In this document: positions 3,987-46,421 of the stretch, in pieces
How positions within the stretch are numbered: the stretch's first letter is position 1
Layout: every line of letters begins with the position of its first letter
Origin: Candidatus Desulfopertinax cowenii
GTDB taxonomy: Bacteria > Bacillota > Desulfotomaculia > Desulfotomaculales > Desulforudaceae
NCBI GenBank assembly: GCA_001899445.1
Contig: MPOA01000004.1
Coordinates: 1 to 64,000 of the forward strand
Reading direction: 5' to 3'
Length of the DNA stretch: 64,000 bases
Notes under the pieces: model-generated
Databases searched by the model: none
What the model was told of the DNA's origin: nothing
What the model saw: the letters and a program-made list of their open reading frames with translations, nothing else
Program-made: the position numbers and the translations under genes

Positions 3987-4613
3987 TTACCTGGAGTACA
4001 GCTCCACTACCAGTGACTCCTGCACCGGGATATCAATGTGTTCCCGGGTGGGCAGAGCGACGACCCGGCCCACGGACCGCTCGCTGTCGTACTCCAGCCA
4101 GGCGGGGGGATTGTTTTCCGTGGCCCGCTCCAGGTTCTCCCGGATCCGCGACATGGACTTGCTCCGCTCGCGAATCCCGATCACGTCCCCAACCCGCACC
4201 AGGTACGACGGAATGTTCACCTTGCGTCCGTTGATGGTGAAGTGGCCGTGCCGGATCAGCTGGCGGGCCTCCACCCGGGACGCGCCCAACCCCAGCCGGT
4301 AAATCACGTTGTCAAAGCGCCGTTCCAATAAGCGTAACAGATTTTCACCGGTTACCCCCGGCTGCCGCTCGGCCTTGCGGAAGTAGTTCCGGAACTGGGT
4401 CTCCATAACCCCGTAGATTCGCCTGACCTTCTGCTTTTCCCGGAGCTGCAGGCCGTACTCGGTGACCTTCCGCCGGGACGGGCCCTGCTGCCCGGGCGGG
4501 AAGGCCCGGCGGCCAATCGCGCATTTCGGGGTATAGCAACGATCTCCTTTCAGGTACAGTTTGGTTCCCTCGCGGCGACACAAACGGCACCGCGCATCCG
4601 TGTATCTGGCCAA
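3987..4613 (-). CDS. rpsD: 30S ribosomal protein S4 (four-cysteine form)
   Basis: S4 is a primary 16S rRNA binder that starts 30S assembly; in Bacillus it also represses its own mRNA. The 208-residue product starts at TTG 4613 behind AGGAGGTG. Near the N-terminus it carries CRLC ... DRCYTPKC, the four-cysteine zinc site lost in many S4 proteins, and a C-terminal S4 RNA-binding domain ([20 protein letters not shown] type). The frame continues upstream to 4667 but overlaps rpsK and is not conserved. Confidence 0.96.
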
Positions 4614-4636
4614 AAAGGCACCTCCTAAACTTAAAC

Positions 4637-5023
4637 TTATACGCGCCGGCGCTTGGGTGGCCGGCAACCGTTGTGCGGAATGGGCGTAACGTCTTTGATT
4701 AGGCTTACTTCCAGTCCGGCGGCCTGCAGGGAACGGATCGCGGCCTCGCGGCCAGCCCCCGGGCCCTTCACCATCACGGCTACTTCCCGTACGCCATGCT
4801 CCATGGCCTCCCGGGCCGCTTTCTCCGCCGCCAGCTGGGCGGCAAAAGGCGTGCTCTTCCGGGAACCCTTGAAGCCCACCGTGCCGGCGCTGGACCAGGA
4901 AATGGTGTTGCCCCGGACATCGGCAATGGTAATCACCGTGTTATTAAAGGTAGACTTGATATGGGCCACGCCCTTTTCGATATTCTTCCGCTCTTTCTTT
5001 TTCGTTCTGGGCCTACGCGCCAT
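4637..5023 (-). CDS. rpsK: 30S ribosomal protein S11
   Basis: S11 lies on the 30S platform and supports mRNA-tRNA contacts at the exit site. The 128 residues contain [19 protein letters not shown] and the C-terminal [18 protein letters not shown], both near-invariant. It is 11 bases after rpsM and 23 bases before rpsD. Confidence 0.97.
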
Positions 5024-5034
5024 CTGCTAACCCC

Positions 5035-5406
5035 CTACTTTTTTCTCCGGATGCCCACGGTCTTCCTGGGGCCTTTTCGGGTCCGGGCGTTGGTTCTGGA
5101 GCGCTGTCCCCTAACCGGCAAGCCCCGCCGGTGGCGCAAACCACGATAAGATCCAATTTCAATCAGTCGCTTGATGTTCAGGGCTACCTCGCGCCGGAGA
5201 TCCCCCTCCACCTTGTATTCCTTGTCGATCAGGTCCCTGATCCGGGTGATCTCTTCCTCGGTGAGATTCCGGACGCGGGTTGAAGGATCGACAGCCGCCT
5301 GTTCCAAAAGTTTCTTGGCCGAGGAACGGCCGATCCCGTAAACATAGGTCAGGGCCACTTCCACCCGCTTATCCCTCGGCAAGTCAACCCCGGCTATTCT
5401 GGCCAA
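5035..5406 (-). CDS. rpsM: 30S ribosomal protein S13
   Basis: S13 forms a bridge between the 30S head and the large subunit. The 123 residues begin [20 protein letters not shown] and include the [15 protein letters not shown]-type signature close to the basic C-terminus. Translation starts at TTG 5406 behind GAGTGAGGG. It is 14 bases downstream of rpmJ. Confidence 0.97.
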
Positions 5407-5420
5407 ACACCCTCACTCCT

Positions 5421-5534
5421 TTATCCTTGCCTTTGCTTATGCTTGGCGTTTACGCAGATAACCTTCACTTTGCCCTTCCGGCGGATTATCTTACACTTTT
5501 CGCAAATAGTCTTCACCGAAGGTTTGACCTTCAC
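5421..5534 (-). CDS. rpmJ: 50S ribosomal protein L36 (zinc form)
   Basis: This 37-residue gene is read directly from the sequence: GTG start at 5534 behind GGAGGG, product beginning [15 protein letters not shown] and ending KHKQRQG. Cys11, Cys14, Cys27 and a following His form the zinc ribbon of the C+ paralogue. L36 organises 23S rRNA near the L7/L12 stalk base. It lies between infA and rpsM, the standard place. Confidence 0.95.
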
Positions 5535-5559
5535 CGTAATACCCTCCTAAACAGTGCTT

Positions 5560-5781
5560 CTACTTATACCGATACACGATCCGGCCCCGGGTCAGGTCGT
5601 ACGGAGAGAGTTCAACCAGGACCCTGTCCCCCGGCAGAATGCGGATAAAGTTCATCCGGATCTTCCCCGAGACGTGAGCCAAGACCTTATGGCCGTTGGG
5701 CAGCTCAACGCGGAACATCGCATTGGGCAGAGGCTCCACAACCTTCCCCTCCACCTCGATGACATCTTGCTTCACTGGCAA
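5560..5781 (-). CDS. infA: Translation initiation factor IF-1
   Basis: IF-1 is an OB-fold protein that blocks the ribosomal A site during initiation. The 73 residues contain the family core [18 protein letters not shown] and end GRIVYRYK. Its start overlaps the stop of the upstream KOW-domain gene by 10 bases, suggesting translational coupling; rpmJ follows after 25 bases. Confidence 0.97.
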
Positions 5782-6059
5782 CCCTCCTTCTCCACCAAAA
5801 CCCAGAGCACTCGCCGGATATCGGCGTCCGTTATTCTTTCCCCGCTGGTGATCTTGCGCTCCAGTTCCGGATCCGGTTCCGCCAGTAACCGCAGGTGCTT
5901 GAAATTCTTGTACTTCGGATTCTGCACCCGGCGCCGCGTCCCGTCAGCAACGGCCGCGCGGGAATCGCCCCGCAACGAAATTACCACGTAACACTGTCCG
6001 GCGTCCCGACCGGCCCGGGAGACAACCACCTGTCCGGGCCTGATCCGTTCCGCTTTCAC
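5772..6059 (-). CDS. KOW-domain RNA-binding protein (L14e/L27e-like)
   Basis: This 95-residue protein belongs to the small KOW-domain group found between map and infA in many clostridia. The N-terminal KOW motif reads [20 protein letters not shown]; the C-terminal half (residues ~50-95) is charged, with [18 protein letters not shown]. It is probably ribosome-associated, but its role is not established. The start is GTG 6059 behind GGTGGAGGG; the frame stays open to 6266 without similarity. It overlaps infA by 10 bases and lies 110 bases after map. Confidence 0.85.
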
Positions 6060-6169
6060 GTGTATCCCTCCACCGCCCAACCGATGACCGCTTGACTCTT
6101 TACCAGACCTTTCGGAGCACTTTACAGACTTCGCTAATAACTTGCTCGGACAAGCGACGACCGACGACC

Positions 6170-6919
6170 TTAAAGCCACGTCAAAATCTCCGGCCCGTCT
6201 TCGGTAATCAGGATGGTGTGTTCGAAGTGGGCGGATGGCTTGCCGTCCTTGGTCACCACCGTCCACTGATCCACCAGCGTCATTACCTCGTAGCCACCCA
6301 TATTCACCATGGGTTCCAGGGCCAGCGTCATGCCCGGCTCCAGCCGGGGGCCTCTTCCCGGGGGGCCGAAGTTCGGAATCTGCGGATCCTCGTGCATTTT
6401 CGCCCCGATCCCGTGCCCCACGTAATCCCGGACCACTGAAAACCCGTGGCGCTCCACGTAGGTCTGCACCGCGTGGGAGATATCGGTCAGCCGTTTTCCG
6501 GCCCGCGCCTGGGCGATACCGGCTTCGAGGGCTTCCCTGGTTACCCGGATCAGTTCCAAAACCTCGTCTTCCGGCTTCCCCACGGGGAAGGTCACCGCAC
6601 CGTCGCCAAAATAACCATTTATTTCCGCCCCGATGTCAATACTGATAATATCTCCTTTTTTTAATTTCCTTAAACCGGGAATGCCGTGCACCACCTGGTC
6701 GTTGATGGACGTGCAGATGCTGGCCGGAAAACCATACAAACCCTTGAAGGCCGGTTTGGCCCCTTGTTGGCGAATGTATTTCTCGGCTACCGCGTCTAGT
6801 TCCCGGGTAGTGATCCCGGGCGCGATCAGCGGAGCCAGTTCGGCGAAGGCTCCGGCCACGATCCGCCCAGCCTCCCGCATATACCCGATTTCCCGGGGCG
6901 ACTTCCTGGTAATCATCAA
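6170..6919 (-). CDS. map: Methionine aminopeptidase, type I
   Basis: Removes the initiator methionine from nascent proteins using a dinuclear metal site. The 249 residues carry the expected ligands: His in [18 protein letters not shown], Asp in [19 protein letters not shown], His in [10 protein letters not shown], Glu in LALEPMV and Glu near [10 protein letters not shown]. It follows secY by 11 bases. In most Firmicutes adenylate kinase (adk) sits between secY and map; here it is absent. Confidence 0.96.
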
Positions 6920-37788: not shown

Positions 37789-39079
37789 TGGAGTTGCCCC
37801 GGTTTTTTGGACACTCTACAGCTTTGACCTCACGCGACCGCTGGCTTTTTCTCCAAGTGCCACCTCCTTTCGAACTCGGCCGGACTCAGATACCCCAGCG
37901 CCGAGTGCAGTCGCCGGCGGTTATAGAAGACATCTACGTACTCGAATACCGCCGTCCGCAGCATGTGCCGGGTAGGCCAGCGCCGTTGGTCCAGCAACTC
38001 GGTCTGCAGCGTAGCGAAAAAGCTCTCCGCAATGGCGTTGTCCAGCGCGTCGCCCACCGCCGCCCATGGAGCCCCGGATCCCGGCTTCCTGAAGCCGCCG
38101 GCTAAAGGCCAGCGAGGTGTACTGGCTGCTCATGAGTCGGAGTGGTGGATTAACCCAGGCATCGGCCGGCGGTTCCGAACGGCCATGTTGACCGCGGCCA
38201 CAACCAGATCCGCCGTCGGACACATCCCCCATGCTCCAGCCCACAACCCGCCGCGAAAATACATCAATGACCGGGGCGAAGTACAGCCAGCCTTCAGCGG
38301 TGGCGTGCTGGGTAATGTCGGCCACCCAGAGCTGATTGGGCGCGCTTGAGCCGTGAAGTCTCGCCGCACCAGATCCGGATAACCCAAACGAGCCGGGGCA
38401 CGGCGGGTGCAACCCCGCAACCGGCGGCGGTGCACGCCGGTCACGCCGGCTTCCCGCATCAGGCGCGCCACACGCTTTTCCCCGCAACGGTTGCCCTTTT
38501 GGGCCAGCGCCGCATGCACACGGGGTGTCCCATAAGTGCCCCGACTGTCCCGGTGGATTTGCACGATCAACTCCTTCAGTCTGGCGTCTTCCCGGGCTCA
38601 TGAGCCGAGGGGCTCTTGAGCCCGCCACTTGTAGTATCCACTGGTGGAGACACCCAGCACGCGACACATGATAACGACGGGGTAATTGGCCCTCTCCCGC
38701 TCCACAAAAAGGTGCACGGCTACCGTTTCCCGTTGGTCTCCTGGGCATTGAGGGCCGCGGCTTTTTTAGGATCTCGCGCTCCATACGCAAAACCCGGTTC
38801 TCACGGCGTAACTGCCGCAATTCCTCCCGCTCGGCACTGGTCAGGCCCTCACGCTCACCTGCGTCAACCTCATAGCGACAGACCCAAGGCCGCAACGACT
38901 CCAAGGACACCCCCAGATCCGCCGCGATCTGGGTCATGGTTTGCCGCTCTCCCGCACCAACCGCACGGCTTCCCGCCGAAACTCCGGCGGATAAGGCGGT
39001 TTTGTCTTTGGCATTTGCAACCTCCCCTTTCTCAGCTTACTCCAAGTATCAGGGTGTCCACCAAACCGGGTCAAGTCCG
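37789..39079 (-). mobile_element. IS3-family insertion sequence, degenerate
   Basis: Bounded by near-perfect inverted ends: ggagttgccccggttttttggacac (37790-37814) and, read on the minus strand, ggacttgacccggtttggtggacac (39078-39054), about 21 of 25 matching. The ~1290-base length fits the family. OrfA starts at ATG 39014 (MPKTKPPYPPEFRREAVRLV) but shifts frame before MTQIAADLGVSLESLRPW. OrfB follows in three frames: RETVAVHLFVERERANYPVV, then IVQIHRDSRGTYGTPRVHAA, then LWVADITQHATAEGWLYFAP and DALDNAIAESFFATLQTEL. The run AAAAAAG near the OrfA/OrfB junction matches the programmed slip site of this family, but further frameshifts make the copy inactive. Confidence 0.9.
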
Positions 39080-39905
39080 TCCAGACCATGTTTGACCCAC
39101 TCGGCTCCGTCTCCACCAATGCGGATTTTCTTAACCTCGCTCAGTACCCACTTGTGTCCAAAAGCAGCACTAGCACTCTCCCAGGCCACCCGGCTGCTCT
39201 TGGTGGTAGCCACCGTGTACCGGTTCGCTAGTCTTGAGGAGTCTTTCTCTTTGCCCTCGTAGCCGACCACAAGCTTGATCTCGCCGTGGGGCTTTACCGA
39301 CCGCTGCAAAGGCACTACAACACCATCGGCCTCAATGAATAGCTCTTGGACCACTTTGCCGCTCATGAAGGAACAACACCGTCTTCAAACACAGCCGCGC
39401 GTAATGTTTCAGTGTCCTGCACGGCTTGTTCCCCCGCCTCCTGTACCTTAGCCCACACGGTCATCGGTTGAATCCCCGGTACCAGGAAACCCAGAATCCG
39501 GGCCGCGCGCCTAAAGGGCATCTCGGTACCCAGCTCCAGGATCAAGCGCGTCATCCGCGGCGTTACCCGCTGGCGCTCGGGCAACCTCAAGGCTTTGTCC
39601 AGGAGGAAGCGGTACGTGCCAGTCTCCCGATTACGGTACAGTCTACGCCTAAACGTGATTTCCCCGAAACTGGTAACCAGGGTTCGGGACCGCCGCCCCA
39701 CGTTTTTGAGAACCGGATCGCGCTGGCTGCTGAGTTGCAGGTCAATATGTTCCAAGGCTCCCACTAACAGTTTTCCGGCAGCTTGTTGGACCAGCCGCTG
39801 CACCCGCTCCTCCAACTCATCAATACTTCTGCTTGTCCTGATTAACTCAAAAATTTCCTTCGCCAGAAACAGGACTATCTCGACCAGGAATCGAATCTTA
39901 AACAC
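39080..39905 (-). pseudogene. ISLre2-family (UPF0236) transposase, frameshifted and truncated
   Basis: Frame one (39905-39363) begins MFKIRFLVEIVLFLAKEIFE and contains FGEITFRRRLYRNRETGTY and GTEMPFRRAARILGFLVPG, typical of the UPF0236/ISLre2 group. It stops at VFEDGVVPS; a one-base shift continues as KVVQELFIEADGVVVPLQR and runs to GGDGAEWVKHGLDGL, where the IS3 end cuts it. The C-terminal ~40 percent is missing. The frameshift site lies at 39363-39366. Confidence 0.85.
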
Positions 39906-40312
39906 GAGACCTCACTCCTTTGGCTGGGAGGGCTCCCCCTCGGGGGAAGCCGTTTTGAGGTCTCACTTCTATTCCCGACCCCTCATCACCTACTTAAATC
40001 TTACACTCACGCCTGACCGGTACAAGGCAAAACCGCTTCTAATCGGCCATGTGCCAAGCCGTATCCCGTTTGGCGGGGAGGTAATTCGGGGGGCCGTTTA
40101 CGCAAGCGGTATGGATGGCACCGCTGGAAGTCCGCTCTATATTTTTACCACGCATTACCACGCAGGTTCTGGCGGGAATATCAGGGCAAAATTTAACAAA
40201 AACGTTACCAAAAACCTTGGAACTCGTCTATCATGTTAGAATCTATTTAGAATCTATATGGATTCCTAAGCATGCATGTTTTAGAAGATCTTAAAGATCT
40301 GCCGGAGGAACA
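39906..40312. other. Non-coding region between the transposase remnant and the sigma-factor gene
   Basis: No gene is visible in these 407 bases. Near the transposase start there is a hairpin (ggctccccctcgggggaagcc, 39930-39950). Close to the sigma gene are the tandem repeat tagaatctatt/tagaatctata (40235-40258) and a palindrome agatcttaaagatct (40286-40300). The remainder is AT-richer than the neighbours. The GGAGG at about 40303-40307 is the sigma-gene ribosome binding site. Confidence 0.6.
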
Positions 40313-40867
40313 ATGGGCAGTAACGGTTTAACCCCGCGGCGGCATCACGATTCCGCCCTGACATTTGAAGAATTGTACAACAAAAATTTCGCCGGGGTGA
40401 ACCGTTATTTGCGCTACCGGCTGGCAAATGCCTGGGACGCGGACGACTTAACGGCCTTAGTATTCACCAAAGCGCTAGAAAAGTTTCACACCTGGCGAGG
40501 GCGGTGTTCTTTTTCAACCTGGCTGTTTCGTATTGCCCACAATGCCTACCTGGATTATACGCGCGGCAACCGCCAAACGACCGCCTCCGGCGCTTCCCTG
40601 CTCCACCGGGCGACACCGGGCGGAAATCCGGAGGAACAGGTACTGCTGGATGAGGAAATGCGCGAACTGCATGCCCGGTTGAACAAATTACCTCCGGTTT
40701 ATCGCGATGTGCTGACGCTGCGTTATGCCGGAGAATTGCGTTTTTCCCAGATTGCCGGGGTGCTGGGCAAAACCGAAACCGCGGTGCGGATGATCCACTA
40801 CCGGGCCTTGAAAATGCTGCGCCGCCACTACGAAACTGGTCCGGGGAAGAAGCAGAATGAAAAATGA
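40313..40867 (+). CDS. ECF-type RNA polymerase sigma factor
   Basis: A 184-residue group-4 sigma factor with only regions 2 and 4: region 2 is LYNKNFAGVNRYLRYRLANA, DADDLTALVFTKALEKFHT and FSTWLFRIAHNAYLDYTRGN; region 4 is LPPVYRDVLTLRYAGELRFS and GKTETAVRMIHYRALKMLRR. The ATG at 40313 has GGAGGA five bases upstream. It overlaps the next gene by 11 bases and heads a five-gene plus-strand cassette. By analogy with other ECF systems it likely directs its own operon; target promoters are unknown. Confidence 0.93.
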   Translation: MGSNGLTPRRHHDSALTFEELYNKNFAGVNRYLRYRLANAWDADDLTALVFTKALEKFHTWRGRCSFSTWLFRIAHNAYLDYTRGNRQTTASGASLLHRATPGGNPEEQVLLDEEMRELHARLNKLPPVYRDVLTLRYAGELRFSQIAGVLGKTETAVRMIHYRALKMLRRHYETGPGKKQNEK

Positions 40868-42257
40868 CCGCGACAACCGGCGGAACAAAGCTGAAAAAGT
40901 AGTGCTCATGGACAAGTACCGCCGCCCATCCGGGGCAGAAGAAACGGGTGCAGCCGAGCAATCGTTAACCCAACTGCTGGACCACATCCGCCGGGTGCGG
41001 AAAGCGGTTCCGGTCAACCGCCGCCTGCAGGAAGAACTGCGCGAAAAACTACTGCGCCGGCAACCGGAAACAACCGGCGGGGGCAGCGCCGGGACTTCCG
41101 GCCGGCCGAACCTGCAAAGCAGCAAGCCCTACGCGAAGCGGAAAATCGGGGGACTTTTTTTGCTCCTGCTGCTGGCGGCGGCCGTACTGGCCGTGCGGTT
41201 TTACCCAACGCCGACCCCCGCCAGTCTCCAACCGGTAGACTCTCCCGTGGCGGTGGTGCGGTTCTGGAACGAAGATGCCGGCGTCTCCTTCACGGTGTCG
41301 CGGACCGGCGACCTGCTGGCGGCCCGCCACGGCCAACTCCTCCTGGTGCGCAAACCGGAGAGCCGGTACCGGGTGCTGGCGCTCCCCCCGAACCGGCGGT
41401 ATCATTCTCCCGCTTTTTCACCAGACGGCAGCAAAGTAGCCCTGGTCCAACAAAAGCCGGGCCGGTCACCGCAGATTGCCGTAGTAAGCACCGCAAAACT
41501 GCTCGGTGGCCCGGCGGTATCCGCCCGGGATTTTGAAGTCCTGGTTGAAGGCGGAGAAAACGTGCAGTTCACCCACCTGGCCTGGTCACCGTCCGGAACT
41601 GAACTGGCCTATACGGAAATCACCCCGCAAAATACCGCCCGGGTGTGGGTGGTGGGGGAAAAAGATAATACCCCCCACTTGCTGACCGCAGGTAAACATC
41701 CCACCTGGTCCCCGGATGGCGCCAGCCTGATCGTCCAAAGACCCGGGCCGAACGGCAGCAGCACGTTATACCTGGTCGACCGGGAAAACGGCGCAGAATT
41801 ACTGCTGGGTCAAGGAGAACAACCTGCCTGGAGCGCCGGCGGCCACCTGGTTTTCGTCAGCATCAGGCCGCAAGAAAGGATCCTGACTTTCATGCCCGAC
41901 GGCTCCCCGCAGTTTTCGGTGCAACAGCGGATAGGTGAAATCCGGTCGGTCTACACCGGGGCCAGCGGCCGAGAACTTGCCGAAAGGCTGGGCCGGGACC
42001 GGAACGGACTGGCCGCCAGCAATTTACTGGCTAGCCCGGGTGCGGAAAGCAGCAACCGGGAAATAGAGTGGTTGCGGTGGCTGGAGCTACAAGGAGTACG
42101 GGAACCCCGGGTTCTGCGGTTGGAAACGGTGGTTAAGTACCAGAACCCCGTACTCGACCAGCAGGAGGACAATTTATTTTTTCTCCGCCAGGATGGAGCG
42201 ACAGCCACAATACTCCAGGTAAATCTGAAGAAACAGGCGGTGGCTCCGGTAAGCTAA
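40857..42257 (+). CDS. Membrane protein with N-terminal anti-sigma-like region and beta-propeller-like repeats
   Basis: A 466-residue bitopic protein. Residues 1-95 are charged and cytoplasmic (helix LTQLLDHIRRVRKAVPVNRR), residues ~98-114 are a membrane helix (KIGGLFLLLLLAAAVLAVRF) and the rest lies outside. The outer part carries TolB/PD40-type repeats: YHSPAFSPDGSKVALVQ, FTHLAWSPSGTELAYTE, KHPTWSPDGASLIVQ and EQPAWSAGGHLVFVS. Overlap with the sigma gene (ATGA-like, 11 bases) suggests it is the cognate anti-sigma factor; that is inference, since no classical zinc anti-sigma motif is present. Confidence 0.75.
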   Translation: MKNDRDNRRNKAEKVVLMDKYRRPSGAEETGAAEQSLTQLLDHIRRVRKAVPVNRRLQEELREKLLRRQPETTGGGSAGTSGRPNLQSSKPYAKRKIGGLFLLLLLAAAVLAVRFYPTPTPASLQPVDSPVAVVRFWNEDAGVSFTVSRTGDLLAARHGQLLLVRKPESRYRVLALPPNRRYHSPAFSPDGSKVALVQQKPGRSPQIAVVSTAKLLGGPAVSARDFEVLVEGGENVQFTHLAWSPSGTELAYTEITPQNTARVWVVGEKDNTPHLLTAGKHPTWSPDGASLIVQRPGPNGSSTLYLVDRENGAELLLGQGEQPAWSAGGHLVFVSIRPQERILTFMPDGSPQFSVQQRIGEIRSVYTGASGRELAERLGRDRNGLAASNLLASPGAESSNREIEWLRWLELQGVREPRVLRLETVVKYQNPVLDQQEDNLFFLRQDGATATILQVNLKKQAVAPVS

Positions 42258-42340
42258 GGAGGAGTAGCAATGCTTCCATCCCTGGATTGGCGCCTAATTC
42301 CTTCGGGGGGCCCCGGCAAGTTTGCGGAGGAGGGACAACG

Positions 42341-44611
42341 GTGAGGGTCCGCAAAAGTTTCCTGATTTTGGCGTTGACGCTGCTCCTGGTGCTCCCCGGC
42401 ACCGGGGCTTGGGCCGACCCGGTACTCATCCGGGTGGTGCCGGGATTAAACGGCTTATATGAAGCCGACGAGGTGCCGGTACAGTTAAACATCAGCATCA
42501 CCAACAACGGACCGGCCATCGAAAACGGCCTGCTGGTAGTAAAGCGGGATCCCGACCACCCTGCTCTCGAAGCGGTGTACCAGCGCCGGGTGCGGATTCC
42601 GGCCAATCAGCACTTCAAAACCGCCATGCTGGTCCCCGGGGAGCTGGCCGCGCATGGGGCCGTGATCTGTCTGCTGGCGGACGGAACGGAAATAGGCCGG
42701 GCGGTAGTCCAAGGAACAGTGACCAACGGACCGGTAGGCATCAGTATCGGGGAGAAGCCCCTGTCCGGCGGCCTGCCTGTTTGGTGGAGCAGTAAAATGC
42801 CCGCGCCAGGTACCGCGATCATCAAAAATATGACCCCGGAGGAAATCCCGACCACTCCGCTGCCCCTGGCCGTCGCCGACTTGCTTGTGCTGGACGGACA
42901 AGAAACGGCCGGACTCAGCCCGGAACAGGTGCAGGCCATCCGCCGCTGGGTGGCCTTGGGAGGGAAACTAGTGCTTTCAGGTGGGGCAGGGGCCCGGGAA
43001 GGACAACCTTTCGCCGGCCTCAGCCCGGTAGTGGCCGGCGAGCAGGTAATGTTAGGCGGCAATTGGGGCGGGATGCGGACCGGCACGGACCCCGTGCCAG
43101 TAGCCAGGGGTACCTTCGTCCAAGGAGAAAAGCTGGTGTCCCAAGGGGACCTGCCGCTAATCGCCTACCGCAGCGTCGGGCGCGGCTGGGTGATTTACAG
43201 CGCCGCCGGCCTGGAGCACCTGCAGCCGGCAGACGAAAAGTTCTGGGAAACACTTTTGCCGGCCCGCCTTTTCCGGCCGCAGGATCAGCATGATTTTTTA
43301 TTTCACCCACTGCTGCAGCGCAGCACCGACCTGCTCCCCCTGCAGTTGCCGCCGCTCCAACTGCTGGCCGGGATCTGGGGCATATACATGCTGGTCGTAG
43401 GGCCCGGCCTATACCTGGTACTCAAACGCCGCCACCGGCCGGATTGGGCCTGGGCCGGTATTCCTTTAACCGCCGTGCTGACGGTGCTGGTAATCTATTG
43501 CCTGGGACCGTTTCACCGGCTTGACGGTCCGGTGGGCCAAACCATGGCGGTAGTGGAACTGCTGGACGAAGACACCGCCGAAGTCTGGGCTAGCGGGTCT
43601 TACGTCGCCCCCCGGGGCGGCAGCCTGATGCTGACCGATGCGGGGGAAGGTGTGTTCCTCCCCGCCGTGGTTGGCTACCCCGGCGGCGGAAGCTGGAAAC
43701 CACCAGTGGTCGAATGCCGCGCGGAAAACCGGCAGATCCGCTTTGACCAGGTGGAATTCTGGTCCATGCGCCAGGCTACGATTTACAAAGTGGCCGGGAA
43801 CTTCGGGCAAATCCGGGGCGAGTTGAAACTGGCGGGAGACGAGATCTCCGGGACTTTGTACAACGGCACCGGTATGGACCTGGCCGCTTGCCTGGTGGTG
43901 GTCGGCGACCGGGCCGTGGAAATCGGTGCCTTGCCGGCGGGAAGCAAGGTGCACGTCGACGGTAGTTTAACGGCCGCCCGGCGCTTTGACTGGCCCGCTT
44001 ACCTGGGCGAATGGCTTTCCCAGGACCGGCCGGCGGACCTGTACCCCAAAAAAGAATTCGCCGAATTCGTCATTTCCGAGAAACCGGCGGGCGTTAAGAT
44101 GGGCGTGCAGTTGGTGGGACGCGCCGCCGACCTACCCGGCACCATGCAGCTGGCCCACCCTGGCGGCGCAAACCACTACTCAGCGCTGGTGCGGCAGCGG
44201 CTGCCGCTCGCCCTGCCCGAGTCCGGAGCGTTCTGGCTGCCACCGGGCCTCGTGCCGGCAAAAATCATCGACCCCGGTCCGGAATACACCCCGGCCGAAC
44301 CAATGATCCCCGGTGAACAGGTAGTGCTGGAATTCGACCTGCAACTGCCGGCCCATTACCCGGAAATCAACATCCGGGCCGTGGAACTTTCCGGGCTGGG
44401 TCCGGATTCTCGGCCCTACCAGATAAGCGTTTTCGACTGGGCAAACAACCGGTGGGTCAACCTGGGAGCGGGGCGGAAGCGTCTGGCGGGTGAAGAACTG
44501 AAACCGTATCTTTCCGCGCAAAGCCGCCTCCGGTTCAGCATCGCGCAAACGGGTACGACCTCCGCCGCAGCGCCCATGCCCGCCCTGGCGGTGGAAGGGG
44601 TGGTGAAATGA
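42341..44611 (+). CDS. Exported membrane protein with GATase-like domain, ABC-linked
   Basis: The 756-residue product starts at GTG 42341 behind GGAGGAGGG and begins with a signal peptide (RVRKSFLILALTLLLVLPGTGAWA). Residues ~27-130 look like a beta-sandwich; ~175-290 like a class-I GATase/ThuA-type fold (DLLVLDGQETAGLSPEQ, AIRRWVALGGKLVLSGGAG); two membrane helices lie at ~340-362 and ~371-388; a large outer C-terminal beta-rich part follows. The stop overlaps the ATPase start (ATGA). Similar outer-surface partners accompany Gld-type and other ABC-2 exporters, but I cannot name a family or substrate. The open frame extends 18 codons upstream without support. Confidence 0.75.
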   Translation: MRVRKSFLILALTLLLVLPGTGAWADPVLIRVVPGLNGLYEADEVPVQLNISITNNGPAIENGLLVVKRDPDHPALEAVYQRRVRIPANQHFKTAMLVPGELAAHGAVICLLADGTEIGRAVVQGTVTNGPVGISIGEKPLSGGLPVWWSSKMPAPGTAIIKNMTPEEIPTTPLPLAVADLLVLDGQETAGLSPEQVQAIRRWVALGGKLVLSGGAGAREGQPFAGLSPVVAGEQVMLGGNWGGMRTGTDPVPVARGTFVQGEKLVSQGDLPLIAYRSVGRGWVIYSAAGLEHLQPADEKFWETLLPARLFRPQDQHDFLFHPLLQRSTDLLPLQLPPLQLLAGIWGIYMLVVGPGLYLVLKRRHRPDWAWAGIPLTAVLTVLVIYCLGPFHRLDGPVGQTMAVVELLDEDTAEVWASGSYVAPRGGSLMLTDAGEGVFLPAVVGYPGGGSWKPPVVECRAENRQIRFDQVEFWSMRQATIYKVAGNFGQIRGELKLAGDEISGTLYNGTGMDLAACLVVVGDRAVEIGALPAGSKVHVDGSLTAARRFDWPAYLGEWLSQDRPADLYPKKEFAEFVISEKPAGVKMGVQLVGRAADLPGTMQLAHPGGANHYSALVRQRLPLALPESGAFWLPPGLVPAKIIDPGPEYTPAEPMIPGEQVVLEFDLQLPAHYPEINIRAVELSGLGPDSRPYQISVFDWANNRWVNLGAGRKRLAGEELKPYLSAQSRLRFSIAQTGTTSAAAPMPALAVEGVVK

Positions 44612-45576
44612 TCGAAATCAAGGGCCTGACTAAAACTTTCGGCAAAACCGAAGCGCTGCGGGGCGTAACCTTGGTCGTCCCCGGCGAGCAGGTTTACGGG
44701 TTGATCGGGCCTAACGGCGCGGGCAAGACGACGCTTTTGAACATTCTGGCCACGCTGCTTCCCGCCGACCGCGGCACGGTCACCATCAACGGCCTCGAGG
44801 TCTTCGCCGCGCCCCGCAAGGTACGGCGGGTGATCGGCTACATGCCCGATTTCTTCGGCGTGTATCACGGGCTGACGGCCAGGGAATATCTGGAGTTTTT
44901 CGCCGCCGCTTACCGCCTTTCCAGGAATCAATACCGCCGGTTGGTCGGTGACTTGCTGGAACTGGTGAACCTGCAGGACAAGGCCGATTCCTACGTGGAT
45001 AACCTGTCGCGGGGAATGAAGCAGCGGTTGGCCCTGGCCAGGTGCCTGGTGCACGATCCGCAGGTGCTGATCCTCGATGAACCGGCGGCGGGTCTGGATC
45101 CCAGGGCCAGGTTTGAAATAAAAGAAACCGTGCGGCGGTTGAAACAGTTGGGCAAAACGGTGCTGATCAGTTCGCACATCCTGCCCGAACTGGCCGAAAT
45201 ATGCGACCAGGTAGGCATTATGGAAAACGGCCGGCTGGTGGCCGGCGGCCCGGTAGCGGAAATCACCGCCGCCGGCCGGGACACCCGGGTAATAACGGTG
45301 GAGGTAGACCGCCCCCGGCCGGAACTGCTAAGCTACCTGGCCCGCTATCCCGGAGTGAGACGGGTGGACGAAGTAGAAAGCCACGTCCGGCTCGTATTCG
45401 CGGGGGATCGCGAGCGCCAGGGCGCCCTGCTCAAAGACCTGATCAAAAACGGCTACCCGGTGCTGCAGTTCACCGTAATCAGGAGCAGCCTGGAAGACGC
45501 TTTCCTGGCGGTAACCGGAGGGGAGCGGCAAAGCCCCGCCGCCACCCGGGCGAAGGAGGAAGACAAAAAATGCTGA
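44608..45576 (+). CDS. ABC transporter ATP-binding protein
   Basis: A 322-residue ABC-2-type ATPase. Walker A is GPNGAGKTT (34-42), the signature is LSRGMKQRLALAR, Walker B is VLILDEPAAGLDP and the switch His lies in ISSHILPELAEI. The C-terminal ~95 residues form the extension common to drug-export and Gld/CcmA-like ATPases. It overlaps both neighbours (ATGA upstream, 7 bases downstream), so it is translated as part of the cassette. Confidence 0.93.
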   Translation: MIEIKGLTKTFGKTEALRGVTLVVPGEQVYGLIGPNGAGKTTLLNILATLLPADRGTVTINGLEVFAAPRKVRRVIGYMPDFFGVYHGLTAREYLEFFAAAYRLSRNQYRRLVGDLLELVNLQDKADSYVDNLSRGMKQRLALARCLVHDPQVLILDEPAAGLDPRARFEIKETVRRLKQLGKTVLISSHILPELAEICDQVGIMENGRLVAGGPVAEITAAGRDTRVITVEVDRPRPELLSYLARYPGVRRVDEVESHVRLVFAGDRERQGALLKDLIKNGYPVLQFTVIRSSLEDAFLAVTGGERQSPAATRAKEEDKKC

Positions 45577-46421
45577 ACCTGAAACCGCTGGTGGTCAAAG
45601 AACTGCGGCCGCATTTCCGCCACGCCAGGGGTCCGGTGATCTTGTTTTTCTACCTGCTGGTGCTGGGCGGGTTTACCCTCGGCTATCTGTACCTGACCGG
45701 GCAGGCTTCGGCCGCCGTCTTTGACCCCGCGCGCAGCCGGGCGGTATTCTCCGTCCTCAGCGTAGCCCAGTTGATCCTGCTGGCCTTCGTCACCCCGGGC
45801 CTCACAGCGGGCAGTATCAGCGGCGAGCGGGAACGGCAGACGCTCAATGTGCTGCTACTCACCGACCTAAGCCCGGCGCGGATCGTGGCGGGCAAAATGA
45901 TCTCCTCGTGCGCCTTTACCATCCTGCTGGTACTGGCCACCCTACCGTTGTACGGGATAGTGCTCGTGTTCGGGGGCGTTGCCCCCGCCCAGCTGGGGGG
46001 TGTATTCGGTTTTTACCTGGCAACCATGTTTTTGTTCGCCGCCGTCGGGACGACCTGCTCGGCGCACTTCAAGCGCACCGGTACCAGCACCGTAACCGCC
46101 TACGGCATCACCGCCTTTTTGATGGCCGGTACCGGTTTCTTAGCGGCCTTCATTTATGAAGCCGCCAACCGAGAGGTTTCCTCCCGACCGCCGGATATCC
46201 CGGTGGCTACCCAGTTCCTGATGGACATCAACCCGCTGGTCGTGCTGTTCCGCATCCTAGGTGAGGGTGCGCCCTTCGGCGGTGAATGGCTCCTGCCTTA
46301 CTGGCTCGTTTACCCCACTTTTTACCTGGGCGTCGGCCTGCTGCTGTTGTGGTGGAGCAGTCGAATGCTGGACCCGCTGAAAAAACCACGGTGGAAAAAT
46401 CTTATTCCCCCGCCAAAATAA
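45570..46421 (+). CDS. ABC-2 type transporter permease
   Basis: The 283-residue permease starts at ATG 45570 (MLNLKPLVVKELRPHFRHAR) and has about six membrane helices. It contains the ABC-2 landmark LTAGSISGERERQTLNVLLL followed by SPARIVAGKMISSCAFTILL, matching the coupling-helix region of the NosY/Gld-type permeases. An open frame further upstream (from 45201) only shadows the ATPase. It ends 14 bases before the convergent thyX. Confidence 0.9.
   Translation: MLNLKPLVVKELRPHFRHARGPVILFFYLLVLGGFTLGYLYLTGQASAAVFDPARSRAVFSVLSVAQLILLAFVTPGLTAGSISGERERQTLNVLLLTDLSPARIVAGKMISSCAFTILLVLATLPLYGIVLVFGGVAPAQLGGVFGFYLATMFLFAAVGTTCSAHFKRTGTSTVTAYGITAFLMAGTGFLAAFIYEAANREVSSRPPDIPVATQFLMDINPLVVLFRILGEGAPFGGEWLLPYWLVYPTFYLGVGLLLLWWSSRMLDPLKKPRWKNLIPPPK

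Follow-up and report, generated by a model that had tools for sequence, protein, structure and literature searches.

The sigY operon of Bacillus subtilis combines an extracytoplasmic function (ECF) sigma factor with membrane anti-sigma gene(s), an ATP-binding cassette (ABC) ATPase and a permease, and has a small regulon that includes its own operon. We take its gene order to be sigY-yxlC-yxlD-yxlE-yxlF-yxlG; its anti-sigma parts are small proteins. Roles of the genes yxlC-G have been described (PMC4326333), the sigma-Y regulon includes sigY (PMC3498285) and sigma-Y has been linked to sublancin/SPbeta (PMC10141391). A second point of reference is the pair BldN-RsbN. RsbN is membrane-anchored and its domain belongs neither to class I nor to class II (PMC8103513). 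Here we describe a five-gene cassette of Candidatus Desulfopertinax cowenii, a member of the Desulfotomaculales, located in the first 64,000 nt of contig MPOA01000004.1 (the window). The cassette encodes an ECF sigma factor, a propeller protein with a single membrane helix, a 756 aa accessory protein and an ABC-2 type ATPase and permease.

We consider it probable that this cassette is a horizontally transferred, autoregulated operon consisting of an ECF sigma factor, its anti-sigma factor and an ABC-2 exporter.

Gene unit, recurrence and promoter

The features of the cassette are as follows.

40204-40230, plus strand: predicted ECF-type promoter, GTTAC-N16-CGTCTA, conserved ahead of the sigma gene in every group
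40313-40867, plus strand: sigma gene; ECF sigma factor, 184 aa, BldN-like within the ECFs (Sigma70_r2 and r4)
40857-42257, plus strand: propeller gene; 466 aa bitopic protein (PD40, alignment, model mb5edd9e86b8f, Foldseek, hydropathy)
42341-44611, plus strand: accessory gene; 756 aa predicted exported, membrane-anchored ABC accessory protein (model m542962f219c4, fold comparison)
44608-45576, plus strand: ATPase gene; ABC ATPase, 322 aa, DrrA/GldA-like (ABC_tran 1.4e-29, DrrA1-3_C)
45570-46421, plus strand: permease gene; ABC-2 permease, 283 aa (ABC2_membrane_2 3.9e-13)

The propeller gene overlaps the sigma gene by 11 bases and is followed by a gap of 83 bases. The accessory gene starts with a GTG codon preceded by GGAGGAGGG and shares an ATGA overlap with the ATPase gene, which in turn overlaps the permease gene by 7 bases. 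The open reading frames thus agree with the initial annotation in strand, lengths and all four tight junctions. Pfam assigns sigma70 regions 2 and 4, PD40, ABC_tran with DrrA1-3_C and ABC2_membrane_2 to the five proteins. An Rfam search of the cassette region gave no match, and a terminator scan of the region performed no better than on shuffles.

An intact cassette with the five genes in identical order is found in 33 further genomes. Carriers comprise families across the order of the window (relatives of Desulfotomaculum and Pelotomaculum) as well as f31, f64 and f78, three families that do not belong to the class of the window. Among the carriers with a name are Desulforadius tongensis, Desulforamulus aeronauticus and Pelotomaculum species. 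A search using the 756 aa protein matched 30 of 60 relatives, and these 60 contain 20 intact loci with sigma factor, propeller, 756 aa protein, ATPase and permease (type 1). With the propeller alignment as query, the class and 398 genomes of the phylum yielded 13 additional intact cassettes; 11 named loci were recovered with this alignment. The scan of genome contigs with the single 756 aa sequence gave no match. Within the class, every genome with a strong propeller match also has a strong match to the 756 aa protein apart from G097, where the cassette locus runs into the contig end. No sixth conserved neighbour gene was found, as upstream and downstream genes vary between families. The joint recurrence in distant genomes that had been predicted from the window is hence borne out. 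A match of the proteins to a characterised operon had been named as the finding that would overturn the proposal; no curated family and none of the papers located in the literature searched describes the five-gene operon.

Cassette copies are broken in G009, G078, G096 and G100. Stops or frame breaks mark the decayed copies L044, L136, L144 and G078:C33, indicating that some lineages can do without the cassette. One of the 20 intact type 1 loci, L038, has an IS607-type element (serine recombinase and a TnpB-like open reading frame) at 4200-6640, which splits its ATPase gene from its permease gene.

In the window the cassette is inserted between thyX and rlmB, both of which lie on the minus strand. 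These two genes are directly adjacent in 8/8 relatives tested, namely six genomes of the same genus and family and two of family f3, with a cassette-free spacing of ~40 to 900 bases. Remnants of insertion sequences lie next to the cassette:

37921-39905, minus strand: rve integrase core and a UPF0236 (ISLre2-like) transposase split in two, located between the cassette and rlmB (Pfam)

The cassette is a horizontally transferred unit. In a concatenated tree of 34 cassettes the copies group mostly by family, with exceptions: the copy of the window sits with the copies of family f3, within which f18 is also placed, and f31, which belongs to another class, is nested within f8. The latter (L126 and L127, close to L045 and L135) points to transfer between classes. 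Between the five genes, matrices of pairwise distances show correlations of 0.90-0.98, so that the genes move and evolve as a unit. The genes surrounding them differ from family to family.

The sigma factor scores above the Pfam cut-offs for Sigma70 r2 and r4_2 and has no regions 1.1 or 3, in line with an ECF sigma factor of 184 aa. Its best NCBIfam match is the BldN family TIGR02952 with 108 bits, which is under the 206-bit equivalog cut-off. The match to the SigY profile is sub-threshold. The nearest solved structure is 6dxo, presumably the BldN-RsbN complex.

When the upstream regions of the sigma genes are aligned, GTTAC and CGTCT, spaced by 16 or 17 bases, appear in each family group, i.e. 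a two-part promoter with an ECF-type -10 (CGTC) ahead of the own operon. The strict form occurs at 26/32 scorable loci and in 0.04% of mononucleotide shuffles. Two of the remaining six loci have a change of one or two bases in GTTAC and three have a variant -35 and/or -10 (GTAAC...CGTCA, GTGAC...CGTCT); the decayed copy in G009 is the only one from which the promoter is absent. Six loci with a mis-anchored sigma start have it as well, including the most divergent cassette, L131. In the genome of the window GTTAC-N16/17-CGTCTA has a single exact match, at the position listed above. The initial annotation had guessed GGAAC as the -35. This did not hold: GGAAC lies inside the promoter spacer in the window, and upstream of the sigma genes it occurs at scattered positions with no common place, the conserved element being GTTAC...CGTCTA. 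Judged from sequence, this promoter speaks for transcription of the operon by the operon's own sigma factor, and the sigma factor appears to switch on mainly its own unit.

Exporter and propeller protein

ATPase and permease represent an ABC-2 exporter by their domains (ABC_tran and ABC2_membrane). The ATPase is 55-71% identical among the intact cassettes of the order, and the permease has several hydrophobic helices. These data support the suggested arrangement, in which an ECF sigma factor lies next to an ABC-2 exporter whose accessory protein is exported. A role in detoxification or immunity, by which the exporter would clear or resist a toxic peptide or an antimicrobial and the propeller would be the sensor of this compound, is less likely than not. 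Roles of this sort have been proposed for other small ABC operons under ECF control. The DrrA-like ATPase, the resemblance of a small ECF regulon with an ABC pump to sigY-yxlC-yxlD-yxlE-yxlF-yxlG and the patchy, mobile distribution with decay would fit such a role. However, no NCBIfam resistance family matches above cut-off and no toxin or peptide gene consistently adjoins the cassette.

The 466 aa protein is predicted to have an N-terminal two-helix segment (residues 32-67; helices 32-50 and 55-67) and one transmembrane helix (residues 97-114) in a model with a mean predicted local distance difference test (pLDDT) score of 82. Hydropathy shows a single peak preceded by KRK, and the propeller is placed outside because positive residues precede the membrane helix. 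Top solved matches of the propeller in Foldseek are TolB chains and Pfam reports PD40. Against the TolB equivalog the protein scores 38 bits, below the cut-off of 343. That the protein is bitopic with outer PD40-type repeats, as initially read, agrees with Pfam, model and hydropathy.

The cytoplasmic block LLxHMRxVRxxVPVNxxLxxELRxKL is conserved in the alignment of the 466 aa protein, and L40, R45, R48, P52, V53, L57 and L61 are invariant in 21 propeller sequences. Class I anti-sigma factors (ASDI/ZAS) have a cytoplasmic domain of >50 aa, often with HxxxCxxC (PMC7406223). By these published criteria the two-helix segment is not class I, since it is short (~36 aa) and contains neither a Cys nor a zinc motif. 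Class II and class III domains are known as well (PMC8103513). Their trait is short helices that wrap the sigma factor; two helices are predicted here, with no sequence match to solved chains. The protein had been described as having no known anti-sigma motif. This stands insofar as the block matches no known class by sequence, but fails in the strong sense, as the conserved two-helix block is the obvious candidate. The 466 aa protein is likely an anti-sigma sensor without zinc motif that would bind the sigma factor through this block. A bolder suggestion, which we make tentatively, is that it founds a new class of ECF anti-sigma factors, composed of a very short, sigma-binding two-helix segment, a transmembrane helix and a TolB-like propeller that directly monitors the exporter's state via the 756 aa protein. 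If true, the pump's own load or assembly would set its expression.

Alternatively, the propeller protein might be a structural or export subunit, with the sigma factor controlled by transcription or by another anti-sigma factor. It has no recognised anti-sigma domain, and envelope complexes often contain propellers, TolB being an example. Against this, all intact copies have the propeller gene immediately behind the sigma gene (as a rule overlapping it or no more than ~15 bases away), the cytoplasmic two-helix block ahead of the membrane helix is conserved, and related three-gene exporter loci without a sigma gene have no propeller gene either. We hence regard this alternative as unlikely.

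The accessory protein and its family

The model of the 756 aa protein (mean pLDDT 81) comprises a signal helix, an Ig-like domain (~27-127), a GATase1-like domain (~130-313), a transmembrane hairpin with a basic loop (339-387) and a C-terminal beta structure predicted to lie outside, which the fold comparison barely reached. The GATase-like fold and the two mid-protein membrane helices, both noted initially, are confirmed by the predicted structure, and the two helices are seen by hydropathy as well. The GATase1-like domain aligns best with STM3548 (VIA-align Z 14.9, root mean square deviation 3.0, 177 aligned residues), followed by GH42 domains, YaaE and ThuA-like folds. Its nucleophile elbow, where GATase1 enzymes carry the catalytic Cys, reads GGAGA. 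The protein is probably not an amidotransferase, because no Cys is conserved in the domain.

Of 21 family members, 17 match DUF7408 at E up to 0.05 (best 1.6e-7), the member in the window being below cut-off. The match of the 756 aa protein to DUF4350 is weak and sub-threshold. The family is homologous over nearly the whole length (hhalign 100%, E 3e-44) to longer accessory proteins of a second type of locus (type 2, L054-L061), in which ATPase and permease come after such a relative and no sigma/propeller pair adjoins. This unit and its wider phylum relatives usually precede genes for a ~450-690 aa membrane protein, MoxR, DUF58 and BatA. DUF58 is found in 8/8 type 2 genomes tested versus 0/17 cassette genomes. 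Both types coexist in one genome of the class, G089, whose cassette-type match is a fragment; overlap of the types is rarer than expected by chance, with P about 0.007 when kinship is ignored.

The order 756 aa family protein, ABC ATPase, ABC-2 permease, membrane protein, MoxR, DUF58 and BatA forms a widespread operon of Bacillota (L209-L220, L055-L061), the transporter half of which appears to be without a name. Its membrane protein had no Pfam match in the one scanned. A 396 aa protein, likewise without Pfam match, is encoded immediately before the accessory gene of this operon at L211:8098-9288.

A GldAFG-like transporter for gliding or surface assembly to which sigma control was added is another conceivable identity. 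There are a moderate match to GldA and a weak one to GldF, and the weak DUF4350 match and the GATase-like fold point the same way, GldG/IFT52 having such a fold too. The 756 aa protein is nevertheless not recognised as GldG: hhalign against an ABC_transp_aux (GldG-type) protein gave a probability of 1%, and ABC_transp_aux (PF09822) matches 0/21 family members at E 0.05 and none of the proteins in the window's own genome. Moreover the topology differs, with a mid-protein hairpin here versus terminal helices. We consider this identity very improbable. A chance neighbourhood of unrelated genes is refuted by the recurrence of the cassette in the same order in different surroundings in 33 further copies.

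Proposed mechanism and comparison with known systems

For the autoregulated sigma/anti-sigma/exporter operon we propose the following course. In the resting state, the two-helix segment on the cytoplasmic side of the propeller protein would tether the sigma factor to the membrane. Sensing of a ligand or of a change in the envelope by the TolB-like propeller outside, perhaps with the 756 aa protein taking part, would lead to release of the sigma factor. RNA polymerase with the released sigma factor would read GTTAC-N16/17-CGTCTA and more of all five proteins would be made. ATPase and permease would then export a substrate, whereby the pseudo-GATase protein may serve as a non-catalytic outer subunit for substrate binding or coupling.

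This proposal is favoured by conserved order and co-occurrence, concordant gene trees, the ECF-type promoter with its single exact match in the genome and the overlap of the sigma gene with the gene of a membrane partner that carries a conserved cytoplasmic helical block before its membrane helix. The TolB-like propeller outside, the GATase-like fold without catalytic Cys and the overlaps of the exporter genes with the accessory gene and with each other argue in the same direction. Several points weigh against it. ABC-2 systems may act otherwise than by export. A comparison of the anti-sigma segment with Pfam, NCBIfam and the solved anti-sigma chains in the PDB gave no related chain. Some other genomes hold two to five exact promoter matches, and others have none although their promoter is present with a variant -10. 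Moreover the genome search used the exact pattern, by which degenerate regulon members may be missed.

The cassette is of interest because it joins sigma factor, anti-sigma factor and exporter in one compact, portable unit for which both promoter and sensor are predicted. The range of known systems would be extended by a sensor of propeller type and possibly by a new, short anti-sigma domain. The cassette also ties an unnamed, DUF7408-like outer accessory family to two alternative contexts, a sigma factor or MoxR/DUF58/BatA. Almost no work on ECF sigma factors of this group of anaerobes was found in the literature searched.

Compared with described systems, TolB is the nearest solved propeller to the 466 aa protein. 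TolB, however, is a soluble, periplasmic protein of the Gram-negative Tol-Pal system, whereas here the propeller is membrane-anchored and fused to a cytoplasmic segment. GldA-GldF-GldG likewise joins an ABC-2 transporter to an outer accessory protein, but that protein is not homologous by profile and has another topology. The MoxR-DUF58-BatA operons share the homologous accessory protein followed by ATPase and ABC-2 permease; they differ in that a membrane protein, the MoxR ATPase, DUF58 and BatA follow and the sigma/propeller pair is missing. BldN-RsbN is near by NCBIfam family and solved structure, yet the sigma factor scores far under the BldN cut-off and the N-terminal segment of the 466 aa protein matches no anti-sigma chain; to our knowledge, RsbN has no propeller. 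The sigY operon is alike in composition. The sigma factor of the cassette may likewise control mainly its own ABC operon, the one exact promoter match in the genome lying at the cassette. In sequence, the link to sigY is a sub-threshold SigY profile match, and we know of neither a TolB-like propeller nor a 756 aa pseudo-GATase protein in the sigY operon. Taken together, the cassette belongs to an already known kind of operon rather than to a new category, and by this comparison it most likely works like the sigY operon with a different sensor and different accessory proteins.

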